A DNA stretch of 64,000 bases from Lewinella cohaerens DSM 23179 (GCF_000379805.1 NZ_KB903554.1:80324-144323); one strand, 5' to 3'; shown: positions 44,774 to 54,159, numbered from the stretch's first letter. Made by a program: numbers and translations. Notes: a model not told the origin generated them from the sequence alone.

Positions 44774-47700
44774 ATGCGTTTCCCCAAAAGCTTCCTTTTC
44801 CTACTCCTTTTTTCCCTGAGTAACATAAGCTTCCTGTTTGCTGCCGATTATTTTTGGATCGGTGGAAGTGGCAACTGGTCAGATATCAGCCATTGGGCTA
44901 CCAGCTCTGGTGGTGCCATCACCCATCCACAAGCACCAACTGCCGATGATGATATTTTCTTTGATGGAAACTCCTTCACTGCACCAGGGCAAACGGTGAC
45001 TATGAATACCGATATCATTTTTTGTCGAAGCATGAGTTGGGTGGGCGTCACCAATAACCCGACCTTTATTGGTGGTGCCAACGTGACCTTAAACATTTAT
45101 GGCTCGCTAGACTTGGCGCCTACCATGACCTTCTCATTTACCGGGCGAACAGTCTTCACAGGCACACTCCCTACAAATACCATCAGCTACGGTACGCAGC
45201 CAGCCGGGCAAGACGTCTTCTTTGATGGTACTGCCACCTGGCTACTCAACAGTGGGATTACCGTAGACAGCGCTTTTGTCTTAAACGAGGGCAACCTACA
45301 AACCAATGGTCAAAACATTGATTGCAAATACTTTGAAAGTCGTACCAATAACAACAGAACGCTAGACTTAGCGGGGTCGATTATCACCATTCGTGGTACT
45401 ACAATTGATCCTTTTAGCGGGAATGTCCCAGAGCAGATCATCCAGCCACTGCGGTTGCATGCAAGCAATCTGACGATGATTGCTGGAACCTCCACCTTTA
45501 TCCTTATTGATCCGGTCGTTGATATTTGGATGGAAGGGCCTGGTGTTATTAATTTCAATCGAGTGATCCTAAGCAGTCCGATGGGGAATAGTCGCATTAT
45601 TCCTTGGATACCTAGTGGCAATGGTGCCGATGCGCCTACCATGAACTACAACGAGCTGGATCTCTTTCACCTGACCCTACTCAACGGCAGCCCCACCATT
45701 GGTAATCTTATTTTACACCCCGGTCAACGTTATCAATTTGAGGCTGGCGAAACCTTTACGCTAGGGGCGATTGATGCACAAGGCGATTGTCTACAAAGCA
45801 TCGGAATAGAATCTAGCTCCGCTGGTAATGCGACCAACTTTGCTACAGGCAGTAACGTGGCGGTCGACTTCGTCTCCCTTCGTGACATAAATGCTACGGG
45901 AGCTTTCACCGCCGATAACGTGGTCGATTTAGGCAACAATACAGGTTGGACACTCAATCCACGCCCCTCACAAGATTTCTTCTGGGTAGGCGGTACTGGC
46001 AACTGGAACGACCCTATGCACTGGTCATTTACCAGCGGCGGACCGGGCAGTGGTTGTATTCCCTCCCAATTGGATGACGTGTATTTTGACGCCAACTCCT
46101 TCAATGCCGCTGGCCAATCTGTAACCATAAATGTAGAAAACGCCTACTGCCGGAGCATGGACTGGACAGGAGCTACCAATATGCCCGACCTTACTGGTTT
46201 AGCCAATAATTCACTGCGATTGGGTGGTTCGCTGACTTTTATAACAGCCATGCAACACACCTTTGCGGGTGCTTACTACTTTGAATCCGACCAACTAGGG
46301 AACACCATCACCAGTGCCGGGCAGCCCTTTAATTTTGATGTGAATTTTTCCGGCACCGGAGGCGAATGGATTCTTCAAGATGATTTGTACGTAGACTTCA
46401 ACCTCTATTTCTTTTCTGGTATCCTGCGCACCAATGACCAGGATATGGAAGTCAATCGCTTCTATTCCGAATTTGCTAGCCCACGGGAATTGTACCTTGG
46501 GTCCTCTTATATCCGGGTAAATCTTCATAATTTCTTCGCGCCTATTTGGGAGGTTAACACCGACAATCTGTTACTCGATGCCGGAACCTCAACCATTGAG
46601 CATCTGGGACAATTTTCCTCACTACACCGAACCTTTGGCAGTGCCACAGCAGCCTACCACAAGGTGATCTTTAGCTCTTACGAAGGCCGCCTGTTTTCCT
46701 TAATTGATTTTCCAGGTACGGATGTAACCATCGATTCTCTATGGTTTTACCAAGAAGGAGCTATTTCCGGTAATAACACCGTCGATTACTGGTACCTGGC
46801 TCCCGGCCATCAATACAATTTTGTTAGTGATGTCACCCAAACCATCAATGAGCTGGATGCCAATGGTAATTGCCTAGATGGAATGATCTATATTCGTACC
46901 AACAGCACCGGCTATACCACCAACTTCAACATTGCTAACGATCATACTTTTGATCGTATCTTTCTACACGGTATCATACAAACCGGCACCGGGAATTTGC
47001 AAGCCAACAACTCAATTGACGATGGTGGGAATGTAAACTGGAACTTCGCCAACTTTGCTGGTCGAACCCTCTATTGGGTAGGCGATGCCGGAGACTGGAA
47101 CGACGAAAACAATTGGTCGCTAAGCTCAGGTGGCCCTGGCGGCGAGTGTATCCCAACCCCAATTGATGATGTTATTTTTGATGCCAATTCATTTTCTTCG
47201 GTCAACCCTTTAGTGAATAACTTGCTAGGCAACAATATGTATTGCCACGATATGACCTGGGAGGCAGGCATTGCCAATACACCTAATTACAACTCCAATT
47301 ACCTACAGATATTTGGTTCATTGACCATCGAAAGCCTAATGACCTGGAACGTTTTCCTCATTAAATTTAACGGCAGTAATAATCATACGATAACAACTAC
47401 GGGAGTAAGGCTCTACACCCTCTTTTTTGAAGGAACTGGTTCCTACCAACTTACCGACCCATTGAATGCATCTACGATTAGTCTCAACCGTGGCACCTTT
47501 GATACCAACGATCAATCCATTCTCGCAGAAGATATTGTAGCAGTAGGTCTACCCAATCCAAAAACCTTACTGTTACGAGATTCAGAAATAGAACTGACTG
47601 GTAACAATCCAAGTCCGTTTATCTCCACTTTTACCGTCTTCTCATCAGGGCTTGATTTACAGCCTGGTAACTCTAATATCTATTTCACCAATACCTTACC

Positions 47701-50521
47701 CGGCATCCGTTTTGACTATCCACTTTCACTGAACAATGTTTACTTCACGGAGCCAGCAGGAGACGCCACGATTGACACAGACAATGGTACATTCAATGCG
47801 ATTACCCTTAATGGGAATGCACGATTGTTGCGCCAACAAAGTATGGACACTCTCCTGTGTGCGCCGGGAAAAGCCTACCGTTTTGACGCTTTCTTCACCC
47901 AGACGATCAATGAATACTGGCAGATCATTGGCAACAACTGTACGCCGATCAGCTTGTCTTCGACCATGCTCAATTCGCTAGCCAACGTAAATATGCCTGC
48001 TAGTGGCAATATCCTTGCCGACTTTATCCAGATGCGCGACATACAGGCCGTAGGTGGCGCTAACTTCCTCGCAGGAGCCCGCAGTACGGATATTGACAAC
48101 ACCAACGTAGGCTGGATCTTTGACAGTGCACCAGAGTTTATCGACGTAGGTTTCCTGGGGCCTGACCAAGCACTTTGCAATGGTGATCCATTGACTCTAA
48201 ATGCCTATTCCTACACCATAGGAGAAACCTACCTCTGGCAAGATGGCTCCACCGATTCTACTTTGGTGATTACACAATCAGGTTCTTATGCCGTAGAGGT
48301 TAATTTTCAGACCAGCTGTGTTATAAGAGATACCATTGAAGTCATTGCCGCCCAAGATTTCGCAGTAGACCTTGTAGATGACCCGATAGTTTGTAGTGGT
48401 GAAACGCTTACGCTAGAGCCCGGTATTACCATTAATGGTGCAAGCTACTTATGGCAAGATGGGTCTACCGATCCTACTTTTACGCTAAATGCGGCTGGAG
48501 AATACAGCGTGGTCGTCAATATTGGCGGCTGTGAGGCCGGTGATACCACCATGGTTAGCCTGGCTACGGCCCCCATTGTCGACCTTGGTTTAGATATTAA
48601 TCTTTGTGATGGAGAAACCTTTGACTTGACCTCTAATGTCACCGCAGATACTTACCTATGGCAAGACGCAAGCACTAATAATAGTTTTTCCGGTAATGCG
48701 CCCGGAATCTACTGGCTGGAAGCAGCCAACAGTGGTTGTAGCACCCGCGACACCGTACTCGTCAACTATTCTAGTGTACCAATCATTGACTTAGGCAATG
48801 ATACCTTAGTGTGTGACCAGCCCAGTCTTATACTAGGATTTCCTGCTTCTGATATTAGCTATACTTGGTCAACAGGAAGCACAATGAATGGGATCACCGT
48901 CTTCCAATCCGACCTTTATTGGGTAGAGGGCAACAGAATGGGCTGTAGCAGTCGCGACTCCATTAACGTTACTTTCCAGGATAATCCAACCATTGAGTTT
49001 GGCGATGAAATATTTGCCTGCCAGGGAGATGTGATCAACCTCACTTCCCCTGCAGTAGCCGATGCTTACGCTTGGAGCGACGGAGATATGGATGCTAATT
49101 TTTCAACGACCACAGCAGGCACCTATTTTCTTGATGCTACCTTTGGAAGTTGTATCGTCCGAGAGTATTTTGAGGTCATCCTAAGTGATGGTCCTGTAAT
49201 TACACCATTAGGTGCTGACACTACACTTTGTGAAGGCGAAAGCCTCAACCTGATGGCTATTACAGATAGCGGCACCGTCTCATGGCAGGATGGGAGTACG
49301 GCAACTAACTTTACGGTTAGCAATGCTGGAGAATATTGGTTTATAGCCGACAACATGGGCTGTACCGCCAGCGACACCATTCTTGTAGCAATAACAGACC
49401 TACCAGAACTCGACTTTGATCCATTTTACGAAAGTTGTGAAGGCAGTACTTTTACACTAGATTCCCCAATAACAGCAGATAGTTACCAGTGGAGCAATGG
49501 TGACACTGGCCCCACTTTTACGGAAACTACACCTGGAGGTTATGACCTGACCGCCACGATTGGTAACTGTACTTTAAACGATGATTTCACCCTTAACTTT
49601 CTGACTGCTCCAGCAATTGACTTGGGTCCCGATCAAATGCCTTGTGAAGGTGCTCCAGTTGTATTAAATGCAGGCCAAGATGGCCTTTGGCAGGATGGTT
49701 CCTCCTCTTCTGTTTACCTTGTTGAAGACAGCGGCCTCTATTTCGTACAAGTAGCCAATGGTGACTGTACTAGCCGCGACTCTGTAGTTATTGATTTCCT
49801 TCCTTCTCCTGATTTTGATCTAGGAAGCGACATCATCGCCTGTGAAGGGGAAGCTATTTCGCTCAATGCGCCTTCAAACCTTGGCGCCATAAGCTGGGAC
49901 GATGGAAGCACAGACCAAAATCGAAATCTAAATACTCCTGGCATCTATTGGCTTGACATCACCGGCGCAAATGGCTGTATCAGTCGCGACTCGGTCAATC
50001 TAGCTTTTGCACCGCTCCCTTTACTGGAATTAGGAATGGACACTATCGTGTGCGAAAACCAGTCTTTTGAGGTACAACCAGTGGTTGGTCAAGGAGTCTT
50101 CCAGTGGTTTGATGGCACAACAAGAGACAACTATCTAGTGGAAAGCCCTGGATTAATTACCGCTACTTTGGATAATAACGGGTGTATTATAACAGACTCA
50201 ATTCTCGTCCAATTCAAGGAATGCAAAGTTTTTCAAGCTTTCATACCAAACATCTTTTCACCCAATGAAGATGGTGTCAACGATGCTTTCTTTATCCAAG
50301 TAGACCCATCCGTACTCGTTTTGGAATACGAATTACAAGTCTATGATCGCTGGGGCGGTCAAATCTTCGTGAGCAATAATCTCAGCGAAGGCTGGAATGG
50401 CAAAACACGCGGAGAGTTAATGCCCGCCGGGGTCTACGTTTATTTTGTCAATATCACCTACAGTGATGATCTTGGCATCAACAAGGAGGTTTTGATGGGG
50501 GATGTGACTTTGGTTAGATAA
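44774..50521 (+). CDS. giant T9SS-secreted surface protein with three large N-terminal repeats and ten Ig-like repeats
   Basis: 1915 residues with a signal peptide (about 1-23, ends LFAA). Three large repeats of about 360-375 residues begin near 25, 400 and 763. Each opens with a Trp-rich motif (FWIGGSGNWSDISHW; FWVGGTGNWNDPMHW; YWVGDAGDWNDENNW), followed by DDIFFD-type and CRSMSW-type motifs, and reads like a beta-helix or beta-sandwich. From about 1122 to 1815 there are ten Ig-like repeats of about 65-70 residues with a C-x-G-E start, a WQDGS-type centre and an RD(S/T) end. The C-terminus (about 1825-1915) is a gliding-type sorting domain: IPNIFSPNEDGVNDAFFI, VYDRWGGQIF, GWNGKTRGELMPAG. Likely a surface adhesin or structural protein. 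No PorP/SprF gene is next to it. Confidence 0.92.
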   Translation: MRFPKSFLFLLLFSLSNISFLFAADYFWIGGSGNWSDISHWATSSGGAITHPQAPTADDDIFFDGNSFTAPGQTVTMNTDIIFCRSMSWVGVTNNPTFIGGANVTLNIYGSLDLAPTMTFSFTGRTVFTGTLPTNTISYGTQPAGQDVFFDGTATWLLNSGITVDSAFVLNEGNLQTNGQNIDCKYFESRTNNNRTLDLAGSIITIRGTTIDPFSGNVPEQIIQPLRLHASNLTMIAGTSTFILIDPVVDIWMEGPGVINFNRVILSSPMGNSRIIPWIPSGNGADAPTMNYNELDLFHLTLLNGSPTIGNLILHPGQRYQFEAGETFTLGAIDAQGDCLQSIGIESSSAGNATNFATGSNVAVDFVSLRDINATGAFTADNVVDLGNNTGWTLNPRPSQDFFWVGGTGNWNDPMHWSFTSGGPGSGCIPSQLDDVYFDANSFNAAGQSVTINVENAYCRSMDWTGATNMPDLTGLANNSLRLGGSLTFITAMQHTFAGAYYFESDQLGNTITSAGQPFNFDVNFSGTGGEWILQDDLYVDFNLYFFSGILRTNDQDMEVNRFYSEFASPRELYLGSSYIRVNLHNFFAPIWEVNTDNLLLDAGTSTIEHLGQFSSLHRTFGSATAAYHKVIFSSYEGRLFSLIDFPGTDVTIDSLWFYQEGAISGNNTVDYWYLAPGHQYNFVSDVTQTINELDANGNCLDGMIYIRTNSTGYTTNFNIANDHTFDRIFLHGIIQTGTGNLQANNSIDDGGNVNWNFANFAGRTLYWVGDAGDWNDENNWSLSSGGPGGECIPTPIDDVIFDANSFSSVNPLVNNLLGNNMYCHDMTWEAGIANTPNYNSNYLQIFGSLTIESLMTWNVFLIKFNGSNNHTITTTGVRLYTLFFEGTGSYQLTDPLNASTISLNRGTFDTNDQSILAEDIVAVGLPNPKTLLLRDSEIELTGNNPSPFISTFTVFSSGLDLQPGNSNIYFTNTLPGIRFDYPLSLNNVYFTEPAGDATIDTDNGTFNAITLNGNARLLRQQSMDTLLCAPGKAYRFDAFFTQTINEYWQIIGNNCTPISLSSTMLNSLANVNMPASGNILADFIQMRDIQAVGGANFLAGARSTDIDNTNVGWIFDSAPEFIDVGFLGPDQALCNGDPLTLNAYSYTIGETYLWQDGSTDSTLVITQSGSYAVEVNFQTSCVIRDTIEVIAAQDFAVDLVDDPIVCSGETLTLEPGITINGASYLWQDGSTDPTFTLNAAGEYSVVVNIGGCEAGDTTMVSLATAPIVDLGLDINLCDGETFDLTSNVTADTYLWQDASTNNSFSGNAPGIYWLEAANSGCSTRDTVLVNYSSVPIIDLGNDTLVCDQPSLILGFPASDISYTWSTGSTMNGITVFQSDLYWVEGNRMGCSSRDSINVTFQDNPTIEFGDEIFACQGDVINLTSPAVADAYAWSDGDMDANFSTTTAGTYFLDATFGSCIVREYFEVILSDGPVITPLGADTTLCEGESLNLMAITDSGTVSWQDGSTATNFTVSNAGEYWFIADNMGCTASDTILVAITDLPELDFDPFYESCEGSTFTLDSPITADSYQWSNGDTGPTFTETTPGGYDLTATIGNCTLNDDFTLNFLTAPAIDLGPDQMPCEGAPVVLNAGQDGLWQDGSSSSVYLVEDSGLYFVQVANGDCTSRDSVVIDFLPSPDFDLGSDIIACEGEAISLNAPSNLGAISWDDGSTDQNRNLNTPGIYWLDITGANGCISRDSVNLAFAPLPLLELGMDTIVCENQSFEVQPVVGQGVFQWFDGTTRDNYLVESPGLITATLDNNGCIITDSILVQFKECKVFQAFIPNIFSPNEDGVNDAFFIQVDPSVLVLEYELQVYDRWGGQIFVSNNLSEGWNGKTRGELMPAGVYVYFVNITYSDDLGINKEVLMGDVTLVR

Positions 50522-50652: not shown

Positions 50653-51657
50653 CTAAATATTAATATCGAAATAGTTTGGGTACCTACGATAATGCTTAAA
50701 ATACTGATTTAAAATCCTTTTCGAAATCTCTGGGTCATTATCCAATTGAAAAGGTAAAATTTCATCATGGATTTCATCGATCGATTTACAATACAATTTT
50801 GAGTCAATTAACAATCTCTCTTTTAATGAGAGGCTCGGAATATTTATTTTTTTTACATCTTCAGAGTTATCCGGCATGAATTCCCAGTCGGAATTAAGAG
50901 AAACTCTAGTTCGCTCTATTTCAGTCTCGCTACCATAGAGTTTATATGCAACATTTAACATCTTATGAGTACCATCACTATAAGCAAAAGACAACACATT
51001 TAAAGCGTACAAATCCTCCCGCAAGCCTGAAATCAAAGACAATTCAACTCCTCTTCTAATTACATTAACAAACTTCTTGTTTGTTATATCGTTTTTATCA
51101 AATTTTTCGTCATCAAAATATTCACTAATCTGAGATCTTATTCTTTTAAACCTTCTCTCTTGTAATTCTTCACCAGATTCTTCATTACTCTGTCTTTGCC
51201 CTAATGAGGTTGGATTCACATTTATTGTTATCTTAACCAGATCACCGCTATTAAGTGTTGACACTAACGATTGGAACTCACTAAGTTGTTCGTATCTTTC
51301 ATTAGCTGCGGCATAGTCTAACCAAATTATATAGTCTTCTTCAGGGTATCGCTCATCTATATCAGCAAAATTAGATATCATTTCATTTACGGACTGTAAT
51401 TCGCAATGAATGCAACCAGGTCTTAAATTAAATATTTGTCGATCAAATACATTCGGATCGGATTCTATTGAATAGAGTTTCTTAAACCCCAATTCATAGT
51501 GCATCAGCTTATGATCTACTAACTGTGGACCTCCCATAGATATATATGCATAATTATCTCTTGGTTTATCACAAAGGAGACTAAGCAAATCGACAAAAAG
51601 ACGACGCTCGATGTGCTTGTTCGGTCTGAGGTTATATGAAATATTTTCACCGGCCAT
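50653..51657 (-). CDS. protein of unknown function in a methyltransferase/GHKL ATPase operon, possible Rossmann-like fold
   Basis: 334 residues, soluble, no signal peptide. I do not recognise a named family. Residues 37-44 (AYISMGGP) followed by KKLYSIESDPNVFDRQIF (about 59-76) resemble the first two strands of a SAM-methyltransferase-like Rossmann fold, with the acidic ESDP at 65-68. EEDYIIWLDYAAANERY (about 106-122) resembles strand 4 with an acidic pair. The C-terminal half is charged and helical, with the tail YFKHYRRYPNYFDI. No nuclease motif (PD-(D/E)xK, HNH, GIY-YIG) could be picked out by eye. The ATG overlaps the ATPase stop in TAATG, so translation is coupled. It probably acts with the methyltransferase and ATPase. 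It could instead be a diverged restriction or recognition subunit. Confidence 0.65.
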   Translation of the reverse strand: MAGENISYNLRPNKHIERRLFVDLLSLLCDKPRDNYAYISMGGPQLVDHKLMHYELGFKKLYSIESDPNVFDRQIFNLRPGCIHCELQSVNEMISNFADIDERYPEEDYIIWLDYAAANERYEQLSEFQSLVSTLNSGDLVKITINVNPTSLGQRQSNEESGEELQERRFKRIRSQISEYFDDEKFDKNDITNKKFVNVIRRGVELSLISGLREDLYALNVLSFAYSDGTHKMLNVAYKLYGSETEIERTRVSLNSDWEFMPDNSEDVKKINIPSLSLKERLLIDSKLYCKSIDEIHDEILPFQLDNDPEISKRILNQYFKHYRRYPNYFDINI

Positions 51658-53066
51658 TAGAGTTCTTCTTTAGCAAGTTCGTATTGCTTTTCAAAAGCAA
51701 AATCTCCGATATCGGAGGGATTTGCAGCGGAATCACCATATATATATTCAGCTACTAATTTTACTTCTTCTTTTTCCCTATAAAATGTTATCCTTACTTT
51801 CGTGTTTCTTCTTGCTGGTTTAGGTAAACTAGGATTTACTCTTTTCTCATTGAATCTTCCTTTCGGTACAGCACGCCAGCTTACCTTCTCTTCATTTTCA
51901 TTGATCATTTTGATAGGATCTTGATAGGTCGCTTTCTCGAAAAATGACTTTACCTCGCTTTCTTTCCCTTTCCATTGATTGGTGAAGTCCGTAAATTTTT
52001 TCACTCCTTCCTTTATGTATTCTAGTGCGTACCAATAAATTTTTGCAGAAAGATTCAATCCTCTTTTTGTCGTTGTAAGTGGCAGGTTTTCGCTGTTAGC
52101 GCTACTAAATCTAACTATTCCTGCAATCGGTAAGAACTGATTATGGAATGATGGGACAGGCTTACTTCCCCAACCCGTAATGTGAGATTTATCTCTAAAA
52201 AGTACTATTCTATCATTACATATAATTGTAATTCCTGCATTTGCAGCTGATCGACTTAGCCTATTTTCTTCTTCTACTTCGTCTATTGAAGCAAGTGGCC
52301 TGTAGAACCCAATAGCAATATCAATCATTACATCGTTATACTCCGATTTGAGCTGATAAGTTTCAATACCGTCTTTTTGATCTTCTATCTCATCTGTTTG
52401 AAGAAGATCAAAAGAAACTGGTGAAACCTCCACATCATTCACCGTTACAACAAATCCTTTTTTGATGATGAGTGCAAAAATTCGACCTACCTCATCTCTC
52501 AACTCTTTTGCAAAGCCTCTACGCTGTGAAAAGCGATCAGATATCTCATCATGAAGATTGTTTACAATTATTGATGTCCCTTCATGACTCGTCCCTAATA
52601 ATTTCAGGTTTTCCAAATTAAGCATCCAATCATTATCATCTTCAAGCCATTCTGGAGGTATTTCCACTGTATACCTATTTTCTTTATGTTGACTTTCAAC
52701 AAGTATATGCGTCCCCATTTTAAAGACTGCTCTTTTCATTCCAATTCCATACATTCCAACAGTCTCTAACTGTGCATCTCTCTCAGGATTAGTTCTTCCG
52801 AATTTAAACGCTTCTTCAATTGCTATTTTCATTGGAATACCTCCACAATTATCATGGATTTCGAACTTCTGTTCATCTAAAACAATATCTGCTCGGAACC
52901 CTTTATATACATTTTCACCTTCTAACGTTTTTAGGTCTTTGGACCTAACTACACCATCTATGCAATTATCTAGTAGATCAAGAATTGCGTCTTTTAGTTC
53001 AATGTCGCGAGTTAGACTATTTACAAAGAACCTCTTTGTGGGTGTTGCTTGTACAGGAGTGCTCAT
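51657..53066 (-). CDS. GHKL ATPase (Hsp90/MutL/MORC-like) in a DNA-modification operon
   Basis: 469 residues. GHKL ATP-binding motifs are visible in order: N-box DAILDLLDNCIDG (about 26-38), with Asn34 as likely magnesium ligand; G1 box HDNCGGIP (71-78); G2 box VGMYGIGMKRAVFKMG (about 103-118); and a GTSIIV-type strand at about 168-173. After the ATPase part is a transducer-like region with Lys in TTTKRGLNL (about 328-336), then a basic C-terminal part (RVNPSLPKPARRNTKVRI). No MutL-type endonuclease motif is seen. Such ATPases dimerise around DNA or partner proteins. It lies 1 bp after the cytosine methyltransferase and overlaps the next gene, so all three are one operon. MutL/MORC-type ATPases are known from predicted bacterial restriction-modification operons. 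Confidence 0.85.
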   Translation of the reverse strand: MSTPVQATPTKRFFVNSLTRDIELKDAILDLLDNCIDGVVRSKDLKTLEGENVYKGFRADIVLDEQKFEIHDNCGGIPMKIAIEEAFKFGRTNPERDAQLETVGMYGIGMKRAVFKMGTHILVESQHKENRYTVEIPPEWLEDDNDWMLNLENLKLLGTSHEGTSIIVNNLHDEISDRFSQRRGFAKELRDEVGRIFALIIKKGFVVTVNDVEVSPVSFDLLQTDEIEDQKDGIETYQLKSEYNDVMIDIAIGFYRPLASIDEVEEENRLSRSAANAGITIICNDRIVLFRDKSHITGWGSKPVPSFHNQFLPIAGIVRFSSANSENLPLTTTKRGLNLSAKIYWYALEYIKEGVKKFTDFTNQWKGKESEVKSFFEKATYQDPIKMINENEEKVSWRAVPKGRFNEKRVNPSLPKPARRNTKVRITFYREKEEVKLVAEYIYGDSAANPSDIGDFAFEKQYELAKEEL

Positions 53067-53067
53067 T

Positions 53068-54159
53068 CTAACTTAAAATTTTTGCGATCGTATGCCCTAT
53101 GGACTCCGATAAATGTGGAGGTACTGAATTTCCTATTTGCATCATTCCATACCATTTCGTAGGGTAAAATACGAACCAATCCGGAAATGAATGTAATCTT
53201 GCAGCTTCTCTTGTCGTAATACATCGATTAAACACTGGATGAATGGGCCTGGGAGCCATAAATTGGCCCATTCCTCTTTTTGTACCTGCTCTCAGTGTTG
53301 GACTTAAACCATCCAGCGCTAACCTCTTATATCTACTAATAGGCTCCCTATTCCCTGGAGTTGTAGCTGCAAATCTTTTTACTACTTCAGGTGTGTGGTT
53401 TGTAGTCATACATCCAGTTAGACATTGAATTTTATTCAAAGCACCTGTGATATCTATATCATCAGCAGTAGCATTAGATAACTTTTTAGAGTATGAAGAA
53501 GACTTGCCAAATCTTCCATTATAGCAATCTGAGGTATTAGGTTCTAAATTTACATCTAAAATATCACACAATGCATCTCTTACCGTAACGTATTTATCAG
53601 TACAAAAACCAGATCTAACTTTAGCTGTTATACGTATAGAGTCAATTTTATTTTTCAGCCCAATAAAAAATACTCTTTTGCGGTTTTGAGGAATAAAGAA
53701 ATCCATAGCATTTAGTACCAAAGGATCGTATACAGTATATCCATTTTTCTTTAGAAATTCCGAAAAACTTGCAAGGCGGTCAGAGAATTTTTTATTCAAA
53801 ATCCCACTTACATTTTCCATGATAAAACACCTAGGATTCAGTTGAACTACTAATCTTGCGAATTTCATGATTTGATCATTCCGCAAATCATCAACTTTCT
53901 GCTTGCCACCATTTGAAAAACCTTGACATGGTGGTCCACCAAACACAAGATCTAAATCACTGCAATCCACACCGAAATCATCTATATCGAAATCAATATT
54001 CGATATATCTTGTACGATAGATAAATTACCTAAGAAATTCTTATTATAAGTTTCAACATGCCTCCAATCAATCTCAAATGCAGCCTTAACATCAAACCCT
54101 GCTCTCTTCATACCTAAACTGAACCCCCCAACACCTGAATAAAATTCGATTGCTTTCAT
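53068..54159 (-). CDS. DNA (cytosine-5-)-methyltransferase
   Basis: 363-residue C5-cytosine DNA methyltransferase with the motifs in standard order: I (EFYSGVGGFSLGMKRAGF, SAM binding), IV (FGGPPCQGFSNGG, catalytic Cys78), VI (CFIMENVSGIL, catalytic Glu115), VIII (FIPQNRKRVFFIGLK), a target-recognition region at about 190-290, IX (TTREAARLHSFPDWF) and X (MMQIGNSVPPHLSESIG). All catalytic residues are present, so it is probably active. The recognition sequence cannot be read from the protein. It is the first gene of a three-gene operon with a GHKL ATPase and an unknown protein, in DNA visibly poorer in G+C than flanking genes, consistent with horizontal transfer. No separate restriction enzyme is found. 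Confidence 0.96.
   Translation of the reverse strand: MKAIEFYSGVGGFSLGMKRAGFDVKAAFEIDWRHVETYNKNFLGNLSIVQDISNIDFDIDDFGVDCSDLDLVFGGPPCQGFSNGGKQKVDDLRNDQIMKFARLVVQLNPRCFIMENVSGILNKKFSDRLASFSEFLKKNGYTVYDPLVLNAMDFFIPQNRKRVFFIGLKNKIDSIRITAKVRSGFCTDKYVTVRDALCDILDVNLEPNTSDCYNGRFGKSSSYSKKLSNATADDIDITGALNKIQCLTGCMTTNHTPEVVKRFAATTPGNREPISRYKRLALDGLSPTLRAGTKRGMGQFMAPRPIHPVFNRCITTREAARLHSFPDWFVFYPTKWYGMMQIGNSVPPHLSESIGHTIAKILS

Follow-up and report, generated by a model that had tools for sequence, protein, structure and literature searches.

What do a cytosine-5 (C5) DNA methyltransferase, a GHKL ATPase and a third protein accomplish together when none of the three is a recognizable nuclease? The question is raised by a locus of Lewinella cohaerens DSM 23179, which we analysed within a 64,000-nucleotide stretch of DNA, hereafter the window. 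The genes lie on the minus strand and are therefore transcribed in the order C5 methyltransferase (54159–53068; 363 aa), MORC-type GHKL ATPase (53066–51657; 469 aa, with an S5 domain and a C-terminal tail of ~100 aa) and a 334-aa protein of family PF20553 that we call MT35 (51657–50653). The ORF map bears out the initial annotation to the base: the trio is intact and co-directional, with 1 bp between the methyltransferase and ATPase genes and a 1-base overlap, within TAATG, between those of the ATPase and MT35. Scans for promoters, terminators and repeats at the locus gave results that were at chance level or uninformative.

Composition and insertion of the locus

The GC content of the trio is 35.5% (ATPase 36.5%, methyltransferase 35.8%, MT35 33.7%), compared with 44.0% over the remainder, and no other 3.5-kb stretch of the window is as low. 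Its flanks hold genes for a gliding-type protein and a sulfotransferase, and dapF. In a genome of the same genus (G395, locus L175), the site is empty, the orthologue of 44774–50521 ending where the sulfotransferase orthologue begins. Because the flanking genes abut there and the ATPase was not found in the 30 relatives searched, three of them of the same genus, the segment 50522–54429, its extent taken from that junction, is best read as a recent insertion, with loss from the relatives as a less likely alternative. Low GC and the empty site support a horizontal origin of the trio, as had been suspected from base composition. The gene at 44774–50521 encodes a repetitive protein of the secreted type, 1915 aa long, whose C-terminal end is of the gliding type; its orthologue adjoins the sulfotransferase gene in G395, and near that place in a further genome (G396) only weak similarity was seen.

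The first gene encodes a complete C5 methyltransferase, in agreement with the earlier reading: Pfam DNA_methylase (PF00145) is covered over its whole profile (E 7.4e-60), PADLOC MTase_II is matched at 7.4e-101, and the catalytic Cys78 lies within PPCQG. The closest solved chain, 3g7u, is identical over ~367 residues to the C5 methyltransferase of the O157:H7 prophage version of the cassette; no paper on 3G7U was found in the literature searched. We propose that this protein is the self-marking enzyme of the cassette.

The ATPase and its partner

The second protein matches Pfam HATPase_c_3 (E 2.9e-11) and contains the N, G1 and G2 boxes previously noted in it, with core residues invariant in 90 relatives. 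Asp30 is likewise invariant across relatives, and MutL and eukaryotic MORC proteins have a catalytic Glu at the matching position. A PDB search with the single ATPase sequence gave no convincing relative; the structural model (pLDDT 93.3) matches the MORC3 ATPase–S5 module over residues 8–366 at Z 22.7, with Hsp90 near Z 21. According to Iyer, Abhiman and Aravind (2008, PMC2292703), the MORC family is defined by the motif GhXhhpXXRhl in the S5 domain, which the window ATPase carries as GITIICNDRIV and which was present in 86 of the 90 relatives versus 12 of 922 other ORFs of at least 300 aa. Both features expected of prokaryotic MORC proteins were found, namely GHKL boxes with an S5 domain and the family motif; the initial label of MutL/MORC-like, sound as to the boxes, narrows to MORC-type. 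The protein is proposed to be an ATP-driven DNA clamp or sensor. A second, longer MORC group comprises GHKL ORFs of 546–610 aa (at L017, L021, L033, L052, L076, L086 and L159–L161) with variable C-terminal regions, one of them Ymh/HEPN. Its members adjoin a C5 methyltransferase, and several are immediate neighbours of the ATPase–MT35 cassette.

MT35 had been described as unrecognized, which did not hold. It belongs to PF20553 (Methyltransf_35), named 'putative O-methyltransferase' in Pfam, with residues 1–333 aligned to positions 1–308 of the 309 in the profile (E 2.5e-67; 227.9 bits against a curated cut-off of 27). Its AlphaFold2 model, built on an alignment of 88 relatives, has a pLDDT of 95.1 and a class I, Rossmann-like methyltransferase fold. 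A PDB search with the single MT35 sequence gave no convincing relative; the solved folds nearest to the model form a tied group at Z 12–14 (Trm1, RlmJ, YhhF and METTL16), mostly nucleic acid methyltransferases, with Trm1 at Z 14.3 and an rmsd of 4.0 over 220 residues. Invariant residues are R18, Y38, D48, R73, W112, E280 and P327; position 65 is acidic (E/D) in 88 of 88 relatives and D114 is near-invariant, and these two positions agree with a predicted cofactor site. No paper mentioning PF20553 or Methyltransf_35 was found in the literature searched. We propose that MT35 is an effector or co-sensor.

No nuclease had been recognized initially; whole-protein queries of Pfam, PADLOC and NCBIfam likewise found no nuclease family in any of the three proteins, and no PADLOC model matches the ATPase or MT35. 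A classical Type II restriction–modification (R-M) system was rejected on the first of these grounds and on the gliding-type, sulfotransferase and dapF flanks: the C5 methyltransferase resembles a Type II marking enzyme, but the trio has the ATPase and MT35 where a cognate endonuclease would be. MZA was also rejected, at 15.6 bits against the NCBIfam MzaB cut-off of 850.

Recurrence of the pair

A scan with the ATPase alignment retrieved 268 confirmed genomic loci, the best 80 of which were read; a single MT35 sequence used as a query against genome contigs gave no match. By tree labels, the best 80 of the 268 loci span Chloroflexota, Planctomycetota, Pseudomonadota, Bacillota, Cyanobacteriota, Bacteroidota, Nitrospirota, Acidobacteriota, Campylobacterota and others. 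MT35 lies directly 3′ of the ATPase in 77 of these 80, a 4-base overlap being the commonest arrangement (42 loci); the ATPase stands without MT35 at L075 and L084, and one of the exceptions to pairing is a contig end. When 395 genomes of the phylum to which the window belongs were surveyed separately, the 4 with MT35 were exactly the 4 with a strong ATPase match. Distance matrices for 74 non-redundant loci gave r 0.76 between ATPase and MT35 versus 0.42 between ATPase and C5 methyltransferase. Given this pairing, the shared genomes and the two correlations, the ATPase and MT35 form the core, and the methyltransferase is swapped more freely. The three-gene unit first described does recur, then, with the qualification that its conserved part is the pair and the methyltransferase is exchangeable. 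The gene order is not unique to this genome, being found in many phyla and in defence slots (the P2 old/tin site and a Pf phage). Far from being decaying pseudogenes, the ATPase and MT35 genes are the most conserved part of the unit, and MT35, a PF20553 member that tracks the ATPase, is not an unrelated housekeeping enzyme.

Of the best 80 of the 268 loci, 70 have a C5 methyltransferase within 6 kb, a fraction that may be overstated for the whole family because these 80, as the top of the 268, lean towards the window's own branch. The methyltransferase is upstream on the same strand in 34, as in the window, and downstream and convergent in 32; the density of C5 genes within 3 kb of the ATPase is 23 times that in the outer flanks. 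In a cyanobacterial branch (L019, L025, L027, L029, L030 and L046), the ATPase and MT35 have no C5 methyltransferase within 6 kb, and the marking enzyme may lie elsewhere in the genome or be absent. Flank scans returned scattered defence genes (HNH, GajB-like, PD-T4-6 and others) together with many housekeeping genes, and we therefore do not claim a general enrichment in defence islands. NgoMIV, EcoRII and Eco29kI endonucleases lie beside the cassette at L045, L056 and L062; each brings its own second C5 methyltransferase, so these loci look like stacked systems.

Other loci show the exchange directly. Pfam assigns the third gene of G322 to PF01555, a methyltransferase of the N4/N6 type, and that of G039 is of the same type, a TSPPYH protein similar to that of G322. 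Two DISARM operons, one on a Microvirga plasmid and one in G165, which belongs to the same phylum as the window, have the ATPase–MT35 pair inserted after DrmMI and before DrmA; PADLOC models identified DrmMI and DrmA in both, and DrmB, DrmC and DrmD in G165. DISARM genes (the DrmA helicase and DrmB) surround L005 and L007, whereas the ORFs neighbouring the trio in the window include no DrmA, DrmB or DrmC. Each methyltransferase variant forms its own branch in the ATPase tree, a quick tree with long branches. At L092 (IMGVR_UViG_3300001213_000114), the ATPase falls in the DISARM branch with a C5 methyltransferase upstream; the contig ends just after MT35, and DrmA could lie downstream.

Mobile elements provide a further setting. 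In P2-like prophages of Escherichia coli, the trio lies between the portal and replication-endonuclease genes (for example at 1459918–1463433 of NZ_CP083503.1), a slot that a published functional selection reported to house tin, old and numerous defence systems (PMC9519451). A second E. coli version occurs in a prophage of O157/O111 strains (172 genomes), and both versions together are found in ~220 of 5426 complete genomes (~4%). The Pf filamentous phage PfAC20 also carries the trio. Most of its sister phages have known defence systems, and the system of PfAC20 itself was classed as incomplete, a cytosine methyltransferase being all that was scored (PMC11878078); its ATPase and MT35 went unrecognized there, in agreement with the lack of matching PADLOC models, and the trio accounts for this 'incomplete' orphan methyltransferase. 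Such locations suggest that the cassette acts against phages.

Relation to known systems and proposed function

The association of MORC proteins with neighbouring R-M genes or methylases has been known since 2008 (PMC2292703), and that of GHKL pairs with C5 methylases since 2021 (PMC8011034). The accessible part of the former describes operons that share with ours a GHKL and S5 ATPase with the MORC motif, C5 methylases, Vsr and a scattered, laterally mobile distribution; most MORCs described there accompany helicases of SFII and nucleases of the REase fold, fewer of them having methylases without a helicase, and that part names no methyltransferase-fold partner such as PF20553. The HEF_HK/Response_reg_2 pairs (Bellieny-Rabelo 2021, PMC8011034) are likewise two-gene units of a GHKL protein and a partner, with a C5 methyltransferase and often Vsr, but their partner is a receiver-like domain, whereas that in the window has a methyltransferase fold. 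Identity with HEF_HK was rejected, as a Pfam search with an E limit of 1 listed neither HEF_HK nor Response_reg_2 for the window proteins. No description was found of a fixed MORC–PF20553 pair with exchangeable marking enzymes, or of its place in DISARM operons and the P2 slot, in a search outside which most subscription papers and preprints fell; nor did the literature searched yield a described function for a bacterial MORC with a partner like MT35, or a paper on HATPase and Vsr as an anti-phage combination.

We read the trio as a mobile, methylation-gated defence cassette, with a probability of about one half. We infer defence activity, the sensing of unmethylated DNA and an effector role for MT35, and the steps might be as follows. 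The C5 methyltransferase would mark host DNA as self, and the MORC-type ATPase would load on unmarked incoming DNA, as suggested by eukaryotic relatives that dimerize and clamp DNA. The ATPase and its obligate partner would then stop the invader without a recognizable nuclease, MT35 either modifying phage or host nucleic acid or locking the clamp in place. By analogy, MT35 may be placed in the effector position, and it is the likeliest effector because it occupies the place where related MORC proteins carry a HEPN/Ymh effector domain; the long MORC proteins beside C5 methyltransferases, which sometimes adjoin the trio, include one that ends in such a domain. PrrC and RloC are RNases that act when restriction is compromised. 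The paraMORC–Ymh(HEPN) fusions, proposed as functional analogues of PrrC and RloC (PMC3710099), resemble our unit in that a C5 methyltransferase lies beside a MORC-type ATPase carrying an effector, and they sometimes adjoin the cassette; the effector there is a fused HEPN RNase-like domain, whereas here it would be the separate PF20553 protein.

More tentatively, the cassette may carry out nuclease-free restriction, in which the MORC clamp would read the missing methyl mark and unleash, or cooperate with, MT35, whose modification of nucleic acid would disable either the invader or the host. MORC–MT35 would in that case be a portable reader and effector that can be combined with marking enzymes of the C5, N4/N6 or DISARM kind. 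The literature searched yielded no test of the cassette with phages or plasmids. Bacterial MORC proteins are the proposed ancestors of eukaryotic MORC silencing factors. Here a small MORC unit, whose partner is fixed and whose DNA-marking enzyme is exchangeable, is present in E. coli prophages, where phage tests are easy. Such a cassette would reveal which signal a bacterial MORC recognizes and how it acts on it, and would tell whether restriction in a defence system can be carried out by a methyltransferase. The six cyanobacterial loci with no C5 methyltransferase within 6 kb, and L075 and L084 with no MT35, count against the defence reading, and the Vsr or HhH-GPD glycosylase genes that accompany a minority of loci would also suit a role in repair.

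The strongest competitor, which we nevertheless think unlikely, is a protective or epigenetic methylation island, where the C5 methyltransferase would protect the mobile element against restriction by the host, and its activity would be modulated, or a second modification added, by the ATPase and MT35. Prophages often carry the cassette, and the predicted methyltransferase fold of MT35 and the lack of a nuclease family would fit; this reading leaves unexplained why the pair is better conserved than a methyltransferase that is exchanged or absent, and the embedding of the pair in DISARM operons and the occupied P2 slot, a known anti-phage hotspot, also argue against it. More doubtful still is a conventional restriction system with an unrecognized nuclease activity in MT35 or in the tail of the ATPase: the neighbourhood resembles that of R-M systems and three loci adjoin the endonucleases named above, but each of those has its own second C5 methyltransferase, MT35 is modelled as a methyltransferase at pLDDT 95 and no nuclease family was matched in the whole-protein queries. 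The least probable reading is maintenance of 5-methylcytosine (5mC), with no defence by itself, in which the MORC protein would act like MutL in very-short-patch repair, preventing the prophage C5 methyltransferase from mutating its host, and MT35 would be accessory: Vsr occurs in 28 of the best 80 of the 268 loci, HhH-GPD glycosylases lie beside others and Iyer et al. (PMC2292703) compared MORC with MutL, but a 5mC-repair module is unlikely because most of these 80 loci lack Vsr and the pair also accompanies methyltransferases that do not produce 5mC (N4/N6 or DrmMI), and MT35 tracks the ATPase rather than the methyltransferase. The HhH-GPD glycosylase-type genes adjoin the cassette at L080:7064–7819 and L013:11595–12242, where they possibly stand in for Vsr in the repair of deaminated 5mC.
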